From Anaerolineaceae bacterium (GTDB lineage Bacteria > Chloroflexota > Anaerolineae > Anaerolineales > Anaerolineaceae), in contig JAJUGU010000013.1 in assembly GCA_029265815.1 (NCBI GenBank), positions 1 through 33,588 of the forward strand: a stretch of 33,588 bases of DNA, written 5' to 3'. The position numbers and the translations under genes were made by a program. Shown in pieces: positions 1 through 4,611 of the stretch (positions are counted from its first letter, which is position 1; each line of letters opens with the position of its first letter). The notes beneath the pieces are model-generated. The model had not been told where the DNA came from and searched no databases. It saw nothing but the letters and a program-made list of their open reading frames with translations.

Positions 1-172
1 GACGGGAGCGATCAAGCTGCCGGAAGGTGTTGAGATGGTTATGCCGGGTGACGATGTGGCCATGGAATGCGACCTGATCATTCCGGTGGCGTTGGAGCAG
101 GGCTCAAAGTTTGCTATTCGTGAAGGTGGTCTGACGGTCGGTGCCGGTGTGATCACAAAAATCATTGCATAG
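1..172 (+). CDS. tuf: Elongation factor Tu, C-terminal fragment (5' end outside window)
   Basis: Reading from base 2 gives the last 56 residues of EF-Tu domain III, ending in [17 protein letters not shown] and a TAG stop. EF-Tu is the GTPase that brings aminoacyl-tRNA to the ribosome. The family signature here is normally REGGRTVGAG; the Arg is Leu in this copy, an oddity seen directly. The gene is cut by the window edge, so start and GTPase domain are not visible. rpsJ begins 10 bases after the stop, the usual join between the str operon (tuf) and the S10 operon, so the two are probably co-transcribed. Confidence 0.95.
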
Positions 173-552: not shown

Positions 553-581
553 CTGACATATATCGCAAAATGCGGTATAAT
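553..581 (+). promoter_or_regulatory. Sigma70-type promoter ahead of rplC
   Basis: A -35 box CTGACA (553-558, five of six consensus bases) and a perfect -10 box TATAAT (576-581) are separated by exactly 17 bases. Transcription would begin near 588. It lies in the rpsJ-rplC gap and would drive the long ribosomal string from rplC onward. This is the best-matching promoter in the window. Confidence 0.85.
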
Positions 582-587
582 GTCTAG

Positions 588-754
588 GTTTTGGGCGAAA
601 GCCCGAAAATTGGCAATTCAAGAGCGGTTTTGTGGGCGCACCAGACAAATACTCACCAGTGCCGCAGCAAGCTGCTGACTGAATTGTACAGGGATGATGC
701 AGCCAAGCCCAGGCTGACAGTCTCTATAAAATATTATGAAGGAGAACAACTGAG
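588..754 (+). promoter_or_regulatory. Structured 5' leader of rplC, candidate autoregulatory RNA
   Basis: The stretch from the predicted transcription start to the rplC ATG can form at least three hairpins. At the 5' end, TTTT-GGGC (589-596) pairs with GCCC-(G)-AAAA (601-609) around a GAAA tetraloop. CAGT (657-660) plus GCAGC (664-668) pair with GCTGC (671-675) and ACTG (678-681). CAGCC (700-704) pairs with GGCTG (712-716). The SD AAGGAG is at 739-744. No open reading frame of note is present. Ribosomal operons often carry leaders bound by one of their own products (L4 in E. coli S10), but I cannot match this one to a named family, so its role is inferred. Confidence 0.55.
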
Positions 755-2072: not shown

Positions 2073-2375
2073 ATGAGCACAATATATGATGTACTCCGCC
2101 GCCCGATCGTGACTGAAAAATCAAATTATATGGTCACCAAACTTCATCAGTATGTTTTCGAAGTTGCCATGGATGCCAATCGGACTCTGGTGAAAGACGC
2201 GGTCGAGAAATTATTTGACGTTACTGTTGTACGGGTGAATATCATCAATGCACCGGCAAAACGCTCTCGCAGGGCTCGCAGCCGTCGGTTGATGATCAGC
2301 AACCCTGCTTATAAGAAGGCAGTGGTTACCCTCACCCCTGAAGATCGAATCCCTATTTTTGAAGGGGTAGAGTAA
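2073..2375 (+). CDS. rplW: 50S ribosomal protein L23
   Basis: The 100-residue product shows the L23 pattern: [12 protein letters not shown] at the start, [22 protein letters not shown], and a basic loop RSRRARSRR around residues 65-73. L23 sits at the tunnel exit and is the docking site for trigger factor and SRP. A TAGGAG-type SD lies about 8 bases before the ATG. Its stop overlaps the rplB start by one base, indicating translational coupling. Confidence 0.97.
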
Positions 2376-3211
2376 TGGCTATCAAGATTTATAAACCAAC
2401 AACTCCAAGCCGCCGTGGGATGACCGGTTATGGCTTTGAAGAAATCACCAAGGATACCCCTGAGCGATCGTTGATTGTTTTACGCAAGGCGCATTCTGGC
2501 CGCAATAATTATGGCCGTGTCACTGTTCGCCATCAGGGTGGCGGCAACCGCCAGTTCATCCGTGTGATCGATTTCAAACGCGATAAGCTGAATATTCCTG
2601 CTCGCGTTTCAGCGATCGAATATGATCCTAACCGCACTGCTCGACTGGCTTTGCTCGTTTATGCAGACGGTGAAAAAAGATACATTATTGCACCTATCGG
2701 TTTGAAAGTGGATGATACAGTGGTTGCTGGTCCTGCAGCAGAAATTCGACCAGGAAACAGTCTTCCTATATCCAATATTCCGGTTGGTACGCTGGTACAT
2801 AACATTGAGTTGAAAGAAGGCAAAGGCGGCCAACTGGTGCGTTCAGCCGGAACAAGCGCTCAATTGATTGCCAAAGAAGGTGACTTCGCTCAGATTCGTA
2901 TGCCTTCTGGTGAAGTCCGTCTTGTCCGACAGAAATGCTATGCAACCATCGGACAGGTGGGCAATTCAGATCACAGCAACATCAAACTTGGTAAAGCCGG
3001 CCGTAAACGCCACATGGGAATCAGACCCACCGTTCGTGGAACTGCGATGAGTCCCCGCGACCATCCGCATGGTGGTGGTGAAGGTCGCCAGCCTGCTGGT
3101 ATGCCCGGGCCAAAGAGTCCGTGGGGCAAACCCACCCGCGGGTATCGAACTCGCCGGAATAAGAAGACTGACCAGTACATTGTTCGCCGCCGGAATGCCG
3201 GCAATCGGTAA
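2375..3211 (+). CDS. rplB: 50S ribosomal protein L2
   Basis: The 278-residue product is normal length for L2. It carries the conserved [20 protein letters not shown] near residues 52-71 and the C-terminal [14 protein letters not shown] at about residues 225-238. His230 corresponds to the conserved His near the peptidyl transferase centre (E. coli His229). L2 helps subunit association and tRNA binding. The ATG overlaps the rplW stop by one base, and the SD AAGGGG lies inside the end of rplW. Confidence 0.98.
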
Positions 3212-3251
3212 GACGAGCGATAGATCTTAACCGAGAAGAAGGGACGAAAAT

Positions 3252-3530
3252 ATGTCTAGATCGCTTAAAAAAGGGCCGTTTGTTGACCCGAAACTACTAA
3301 AGAAAATTGAAGCAATGAATAGCCGCAGCGAAAAGAAAGTTGTTCGCACCTGGAGTCGGGCAAGTACAATCTTCCCCCAGATGGTGGGTCATACCATTGC
3401 TGTGCATGACGGTCGCCGCCATGTACCCATCTACATTACCGAGAACATGGTTGGGCACCGCCTGGGTGAGTTTGCACCCACCCGCCACTTCCGCGGCCAC
3501 ATGTCAGAAAAATCAACGGGAGCGAAATAA
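3252..3530 (+). CDS. rpsS: 30S ribosomal protein S19
   Basis: The 92-residue product starts [18 protein letters not shown] and contains [20 protein letters not shown] and [10 protein letters not shown], all diagnostic of S19. S19 forms a head complex with S13 that touches the A-site tRNA and bridges to the 50S. The ATG at 3252 follows a purine-rich AAGAAGGGA. rplV starts two bases after its stop. Confidence 0.98.
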
Positions 3531-3532
3531 CC

Positions 3533-3874
3533 ATGGCAACCGAAATTCGTGCTGAATTAAAGAATTGCGGAGTGTCTGCTCAGAAGACCCGCCTGGTTGT
3601 TGACCTTGTGCGCGGCAAGCCGGCAGTGGAAGCATTGACAACTTTGAAATTTACCAATAAAGTTGCTGCCCGTCATGTAGGAAAACTACTTGCGTCAGCA
3701 GTTGCCAATGCTGAAGAAAACTTTGGCATCAGCCGTGATGATCTTGTGGTTTATAAGATCACTGCCGATGAAGCCCCGACCCGCAAATGGCGCCGTTTTG
3801 GTGCCCGCGGCCGCTTCAAACCGTTGTTAAGGCGTTTCTCTCACATCACGGTTGTGCTGCGCGAGAAAGGATAA
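3533..3874 (+). CDS. rplV: 50S ribosomal protein L22
   Basis: The 113-residue product has the L22 core, with SAQKTRLVVDLVRGKPAVEA at about residues 15-34 and the extended beta-hairpin region APTRKWRRFGARGRFKPLLRR near 82-102. That hairpin lines the peptide exit tunnel, and changes in it are known to give macrolide resistance in other species. The start lies two bases after rpsS. Downstream is a 59-base gap with a strong hairpin before rpsC. Confidence 0.97.
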   Translation: MATEIRAELKNCGVSAQKTRLVVDLVRGKPAVEALTTLKFTNKVAARHVGKLLASAVANAEENFGISRDDLVVYKITADEAPTRKWRRFGARGRFKPLLRRFSHITVVLREKG

Positions 3875-3881
3875 ATTCAAG

Positions 3882-3909
3882 CAGGGCAGCAGGATAAATC
3901 TGCGCCCGC
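3882..3909 (+). promoter_or_regulatory. Intergenic hairpin between rplV and rpsC
   Basis: GGGC (3884-3887), bulged A, GCAG (3889-3892), a 7-base loop GATAAAT, then CTGC (3900-3903) and GCCC (3904-3907) form an 8-bp stem. Allowing one more bulged A on the 5' side, it extends by a GC pair of bases. There is no U-run after it, so it is not a standard terminator. It ends 14 bases before the SD of rpsC (AGGAGA, 3924-3929). It could be an RNA processing or translational control site; no function can be assigned. Confidence 0.5.
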
Positions 3910-3933
3910 ATGAAAAGGACACCAGGAGAAATT

Positions 3934-4611
3934 ATGGGTCGAAAAGTACATCCAATTGGTTTTCGTCTTGGAATCAATCAGCCTTGGGAAGGTCGCTGGT
4001 TCGCTGAGGGATCAGATTACCGTACACAGCTGCATCAAGATATTGTCATCCGCCGTATGATCCAGAACGAAGGAGACAAAGCTGGCATCTCAATGGTTGA
4101 AATCGAGCGTTTCCCGGGCAAAGTTAAGGTTGTGGTACATACTGCAAAACCAGGAATTTTGATCGGACGCAAGGGTGATTCTGTCAAGAAGATCCGCACT
4201 GAACTAGAAGCATTAACCGGTAAGAAAATTGATCTTGAGATCAAAGAGATCAAGGCTCCAGATTGCGATGCATACCTGGTTGCCAAAAATATTGCCGGGC
4301 AGATCGAACGCCGTGTAAGTTATCGCCGTGCGATGAAACGAGCACTACAACAGGCTATGCGTCAGGGAGCGGAAGGAATTAAGGTTTCTGTTTCAGGTCG
4401 TTTGAGCGGTGCTGAAATGGCTCGTATTGTCTGGCTGCGAGAAGGACGCGTTCCTCTGCAGACTCTGCGCGCAAATATCGATTTTGCCCGTGCAGAAGCC
4501 CTAACCACCTACGGTCGCATCGGCGTTAAGGTCTGGGTTTATAAAGGTGAAGTCATCTCCGGAATGGAAGAGAAAGTTGAATCCACCGAAGGTGTATACG
4601 TTAGTGAATAG
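3934..4611 (+). CDS. rpsC: 30S ribosomal protein S3
   Basis: The 225-residue product begins [18 protein letters not shown], typical of S3. The KH type 2 domain carries [19 protein letters not shown] at about residues 74-92, and the C-terminal domain ends with [14 protein letters not shown]-type sequence and [15 protein letters not shown]3 lines the mRNA entry channel and has helicase activity there. I chose ATG 3934 because AGGAGA (3924-3929) sits 4 bases ahead and the family starts with MG(R/Q)K. An in-frame ATG at 3910 would add eight residues but lacks an SD and abuts the hairpin. Confidence 0.97.

Follow-up and report, generated by a model that had tools for sequence, protein, structure and literature searches.

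The stretch between rpsJ and rplC in the S10 operon of an Anaerolineaceae bacterium (contig JAJUGU010000013.1) encodes a leader that is a conserved folded RNA, with base pairs that covary among relatives. The window, which is the whole stretch of DNA that was analysed, comprises 33,588 nucleotides. This leader is very probably a cis-acting r-leader of the S10 operon, repressing the translation of rplC when a product of the operon binds to it, and the best reading of the comparisons described below is that it is a new r-leader. The locus is laid out as follows:

1 to 172, + strand: 3' end of tuf (EF-Tu); EF-Tu models match window positions 2-169, and this fragment scores below the cut-offs
183 to 491, + strand: rpsJ (S10), NCBIfam rpsJ_bact above cut-off
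499 to 526, + strand: small hairpin TACCG...CGGTA, then GATCACCTTAAAAA (whole region 499-540), identified by eye in the 13-member genus alignment
755 to 1384, + strand: rplC (L3), the first gene 3' of the leader, NCBIfam L3_bact above cut-off
1427 to 2059, + strand: rplD (L4), encoding a candidate ligand, NCBIfam rplD_bact above cut-off
2073 to 4611, + strand: rplW, rplB, rpsS, rplV and rpsC, the remaining S10 operon as far as checked, NCBIfam models above cut-off

The spacing of 10 bases between tuf and rpsJ given in the earlier note is correct, as tuf ends at 172 and rpsJ begins at 183, and the gap between rpsJ and rplC measures 263 nt. The small hairpin and GATCACCTTAAAAA just 3' of rpsJ are near-invariant by eye in the 13 genus members, with the arms shifting in some rows. 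Many related contigs (among L001-L025) start or stop in or near tuf, like the window, which would follow if tuf were a two-copy gene at which assemblies break.

Within the gap, the leader contains the following elements:

589 to 608, + strand: 5' hairpin of the leader, with a GAAA loop in the window (fold; pair count over 13 genus sequences)
613 to 687, + strand: leader module A, a long helix with the conserved internal loop AAG / GACU (alignment A1)
691 to 724, + strand: leader module B, the core hairpin GGGA-UGAUG-CAGCC-loop-GGCUG-ACAG-UCUC (alignment A2)
694 to 699, + strand: AUGAUG, 5' side of the conserved internal loop (core alignments)
718 to 721, + strand: CAGU, 3' side of the conserved internal loop (core alignments)
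739 to 744, + strand: Shine-Dalgarno sequence AAGGAG of rplC, unpaired in the predicted fold (fold and genus alignment)

A leader of about 167 nt with three hairpins, the first one capped by GAAA, had been described from the window, and the fold starting at position 588 agrees with it (-53.9 kcal/mol, z -2.84, with none of 200 shuffles as good). The first stem is kept in the genus, with 90.2% of the cells paired over the 13 sequences, a value that 27 of 500 shuffles reached. It shows little covariation (three cells with a double change) and by eye its GAAA loop is not kept.

The evidence for a conserved RNA structure comes mainly from two alignments. A1 covers both modules and holds 25 of the 46 extracted sequences, picked for easy alignment; 94.6% of its cells are paired, 20 of the 31 pairs have changes on both sides and 93 cells carry double changes against 30.6 in shuffles. 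Its covariation score is 0.429 against 0.240 (sd 0.012) for shuffled alignments, and sliding the partner by one to three columns lowers it to 0.123 or less. The helices of module A (1-3) account for double changes in 15 of 22 pairs, and RNAalifold run on A1 alone returned nearly the same structure, with 32 pairs. A2 covers module B only, with 73 of 116 distinct cores; 91.5% of its cells are paired, 8 of its 10 pairs have double changes and 88 cells are doubly changed against 28.9 in shuffles. None of 500 shuffles reached the covariation score of either alignment and the slid versions of A2 gave at most 0.148, while the number of double-change pairs in A2 (8), one of five measures, was reached by 25 of 500 shuffles. 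The sequences in A2 were selected with GATGATG..CAGTC patterns, so that part of its invariance exists by construction and its two never-varying pairs are constrained by the selection pattern. One of these invariant pairs changes on both sides from G-C to A-U in L325, L344, L348 and L352, four loci which were found through rplC. The AUGAUG / CAGU internal loop of module B hardly varies.

The earlier note had proposed to look in related genomes for a conserved gap and for covarying pairs, and both were found. rplC was present in 56 of the 61 genomes searched and a recognisable rpsJ in 53 of the 56 loci cut around it; in these 53 loci the rpsJ-rplC gap ranges from 34 to 427 nt and is longer than 130 nt in most, while the end of tuf, where tuf lies on the stretch, is 7-27 nt before rpsJ (93 nt once). 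The gap is thus long in most order relatives, and the pairs covary (20 of 31 in A1, score 0.43 against 0.24). The core GATGATG..CAGTC occurs in 50 of the 53 order gaps, L054, L055 and L056 being without it. Among the 13 genus members the gaps have a mean column identity of 80%, and the leader is more strongly conserved than most of the upstream stretch.

A strict form of the core pattern, scanned over about 85,000 bacterial and archaeal species genomes, was found at no fewer than 118 loci, and at least 82 of these have the start of rplC (tblastn to L3) 8-147 nt behind the core, in the same orientation. All 82 rplC-linked loci among the matches listed belong to Chloroflexota by record title (Chloroflexi, Anaerolineae and their orders). 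The 36 pattern loci without rplC among the matches listed look like chance; 34 of them are from other named taxa, one is from an uncultured bacterium and one from a Thermoflexales (L149). Bellilinea caldifistulae (L132) is a cultured relative with the core. In 57 of the 82 listed rplC-linked loci all eight genes follow the order of the S10 operon of the window; the remaining 25 stretches are shorter and agree with it as far as they reach. It is very unlikely that the RNA is a riboswitch or some other ligand sensor located before the S10 operon by chance: two modules with invariant letters in their internal loops would also fit a small-molecule pocket, but rplC lies behind the core in 82 of the 83 listed Chloroflexota pattern loci (the exception being L149), there is no Rfam match, and the model searches, which saw part of the candidates, gave one match per genome in the genomes that matched.

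Outside the order module B becomes patchy. Upstream stretches of rplC were taken from the rest of the class and phylum, about one per family (n=95), and the module B model matched 18 of them, every one within class Anaerolineae. L344, with an E value of 0.18 and perfect stems, was counted as the nineteenth positive. Module B is therefore found in 19 of the 47 class loci outside the order, a set that leaves out the already positive families f28 and f38, and was not found in the other 28, where regulation would be lost or different. Of the 48 loci taken from the phylum's other classes (L261 and L270-L272 left out), none has module B above chance; with filters off the same loci gave three matches, with E values of 0.33-0.96, which were taken as chance. 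These L3-anchored stretches were relied on because model searches of whole genomes, which matched 29 of 298, 25 of 301 and 31 of 350 genomes, evaluate no more than 12-18 candidates in each genome and overlook some true cases. Model R2 of module B has a single match in the window's own genome. L3 is matched in two pieces in certain families of the phylum that do not belong to the class (G358, G370, G379, G387, G395, G403, G411, G418 and G425), with an open frame of about 270-340 codons against the usual 210 or so, which suggests an insertion in L3.

Module A is found mainly in the order of the window and fades outside it. Of 15 loci from outside the order that were scored with both models, every one scored higher with the module B model than with the two-module model; among loci there, L084 keeps a CAAG/GACUG helix and L085 has a similar one. 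Of the 82 listed rplC-linked loci, 37 have the first Shine-Dalgarno-like word at a distance of 1-7 nt from the core, 44 at 9-31 nt and one at 131 nt. A closing helix of at least six pairs resembling that of module A was detected, by a rough script that undercounts, in 3 of the 37 loci in which this word is near and in 16 of the 45 in which it is far.

The near invariance of AUGAUG also invites another reading, in which a short leader peptide would begin there and its translation would control rplC. In the window this gives an open reading frame, MMQPSPG, closed by the UGA of the 3' strand, and this length of seven codons recurs in 35 of the 122 distinct cores. Nevertheless, over those 122 cores the length of the frame runs from 2 to 200 codons, the core lengths are spread across all three frames (63, 38 and 21) and a Shine-Dalgarno-like word precedes AUGAUG in only seven, and this reading is disfavoured as exceedingly improbable.

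Under the preferred reading of a cis-acting r-leader, an operon product would become free when ribosomal proteins outrun rRNA and would bind module B, helped by module A where it is present. The bound protein would block the 30S subunit at the Shine-Dalgarno sequence of rplC, and the block would lower the expression of the genes behind it through translational coupling. A simple consensus scan found no terminator-like site on the + strand in 553-754 and the Shine-Dalgarno sequence is open in the predicted fold; translational control is thus favoured, and the default state of the leader would be on. In the family of the window the leader probably starts at its own promoter, which would leave rpsJ with tuf.

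Some points do not fit this mechanism easily. Mimicry of rRNA, which is usual in r-leaders although not universal, is not above chance here. Moreover the core of the window ends about 30 nt before the start codon of rplC, at the edge of the 30S footprint. The latter point would suit an r-leader working by transcription attenuation or through mRNA stability (5' hairpin, RNase cleavage) instead of a Shine-Dalgarno block, as would the hairpin at the inferred transcript start in the genus and the fact that L4 of E. coli regulates transcription as well as translation (PMC10931766). Such a mode of action is nevertheless unlikely, since the scanned region has no terminator-like site, the core all but abuts the Shine-Dalgarno sequence in 37 of the 82 listed rplC-linked loci, and a separate leader would not fit in some relatives, such as L340, in which only 55 nt separate rpsJ from rplC.

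As to the protein that would bind the r-leader, L4 is the leading candidate, at somewhat below an even chance. L3, the product of the gene nearest the leader, is possible with a clearly lower probability, and the rest of our estimate goes to another protein of the operon. Gene order is uninformative in naming the ligand, as L4 follows L3 in all 72 loci with enough DNA. L4 and L24 bind a 23S fragment that contains helix 20 (H20), and the core resembles the H20 loop, but decoys matched this resemblance in 202 of 300 and in 124 of 200 cases, so that it does not exceed chance; the 23S of the own genome was not found. A likeness of the core to a kink-turn or box C/D motif was considered by eye and rejected, as the covarying inner helix excludes the pairing needed.

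Upstream of the leader the following signals were located:

552 to 588, + strand: inverted repeat enclosing the promoter, then TTTT; its arms co-evolve in the genus (folds and arm permutation)
553 to 558, + strand: -35 element CTGACA (promoter scan)
576 to 581, + strand: -10 element TATAAT (promoter scan), kept in most genus members

The promoter had been called near-perfect (CTGACA, 17 bases, TATAAT), which holds, as 11 of the 12 consensus positions agree. It has the top score of 13 promoter-like sites in 12 kb; shuffled sequence gives a mean of 13.6 such sites at the scan threshold, so that the number of sites is meaningless and only the score of the site at 553-581 stands out. In the genus (n=13) the -10 element reads TATAAT in ten members, TAAAAT in two and TACAAT in one, and the -35 element is not conserved. 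For 36 order loci that have 60 nt or more ahead of module A, the mean of the best promoter scores is 9.1, compared with 7.3 for shuffles; eight of 44 loci dropped out of this test as too short, and L015 and L016 were left out. The proposal that the control region of the operon lies between rpsJ and rplC can be upheld in part: the conserved covarying leader is strongly supported and the promoter is plausible in the family of the window, but a promoter at this place is not plausible in all relatives, given the gap of L340 and the eight order loci with little room before module A.

Unexpectedly, the same stretch can also form a structure. Each of the 13 genus members is predicted to form a long hairpin here (z -2.3 to -8.3), and z < -1.5 is reached by 7 of the 14 stretches taken from outside the genus. 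A fixed-column pair count on a MAFFT alignment found only 65.4% of the cells paired and a covariation reached by 128 of 500 shuffles; this count fails because indels offset the 5' arm, and an arm-swap test was used in its place. Over eight genus clusters the own arms pair at a summed -141.6 kcal/mol, and only 4 of the 40,320 arm permutations, including the true one, are as stable, with a foreign 5' arm pairing better in three of the eight clusters. Changes in the -10 element are accompanied by changes in the other arm of the inverted repeat, and the element seems to be under two demands. We infer that the hairpin may form in RNA reading through from tuf-rpsJ. Long inverted repeats between rpsJ and the promoter were also seen by eye in other members of the family (L014, L017-L022, L024, L029 and L040), with no clear T run behind them, and these repeats look as if they ended or protected the tuf-rpsJ transcript.

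It could accordingly be argued that the site at 553-581 is no promoter and only part of an RNA hairpin in the read-through transcript. It lies within a co-evolving inverted repeat, and for 7 of the 13 genus members the highest promoter score (8/12) does not exceed that of shuffles. We consider this rather unlikely: the -10 element retains at least five of six consensus letters in all 13 genus members, and -10-like words recur 15-49 nt upstream of module A in many family members. Moreover the promoter role and the hairpin role are compatible and both can be true. A bolder combination, which we regard as a doubtful but conceivable one, would be that the core hairpin is an L3 operator and that the promoter DNA of the genus doubles as a selected hairpin that ends or cuts the tuf-rpsJ read-through RNA, by which rpsJ would be insulated and tuned apart from the remaining S10 operon. 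The promoter within a hairpin also offers an example, open to testing, of a single stretch that carries signals at both the DNA and the RNA level.

The S10 operon belongs to the long ribosomal operons, and the leader would represent another independent invention of its control in a large lineage, if the well-supported separate leader holds. The covariance models of the leader can be used for annotation, and module B, a small and defined RNA of 34 nt, can serve for finding the protein that governs the operon. The observation in the earlier note that the leader could not be matched to a known class agrees with Rfam 15, which gave no match in the window or in 20 related loci; a permissive scan of 480-800 returned three matches, all far below the cut-offs. 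In searches of the main texts of open-licence papers no paper was recognised as describing this leader, and no bacterial autogenous L3 leader was found in them.

In E. coli the S10 leader sits ahead of rpsJ. Both leaders are long folded 5' UTRs of the same operon with an operon protein as the likely ligand, but that of E. coli is the 5' UTR of the whole operon, whereas the Anaerolineae leader is placed behind rpsJ, between rpsJ and rplC. Control of the E. coli operon by uL4 acts through the 5' UTR, and the leader is thought to use an attenuator (PMC10931766); in this comparison by description, the Anaerolineae leader differs in having no terminator-like site. The S10 r-leader of Firmicutes and Clostridia, refound by Eckert and Weinberg in 2020 and named in PMC7247131, is likewise a predicted r-leader of the S10 operon, compared here by its description. 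Chloroflexi do not appear in the main text of that paper. Its table of novel r-leaders lists L2 of Alphaproteobacteria and L4 of Archaeoglobi, both rated borderline; these are also predicted r-leaders in the same gene cluster, although in other lineages, and the one of Archaeoglobi precedes rplC as the Anaerolineae leader does. Finally, the operators of L31 and L25 consist of one irregular hairpin in the 5' UTR and act on translation (PMC10931766), and module B is alike in being an irregular hairpin, a likeness of layout that spans other genes and other lineages.
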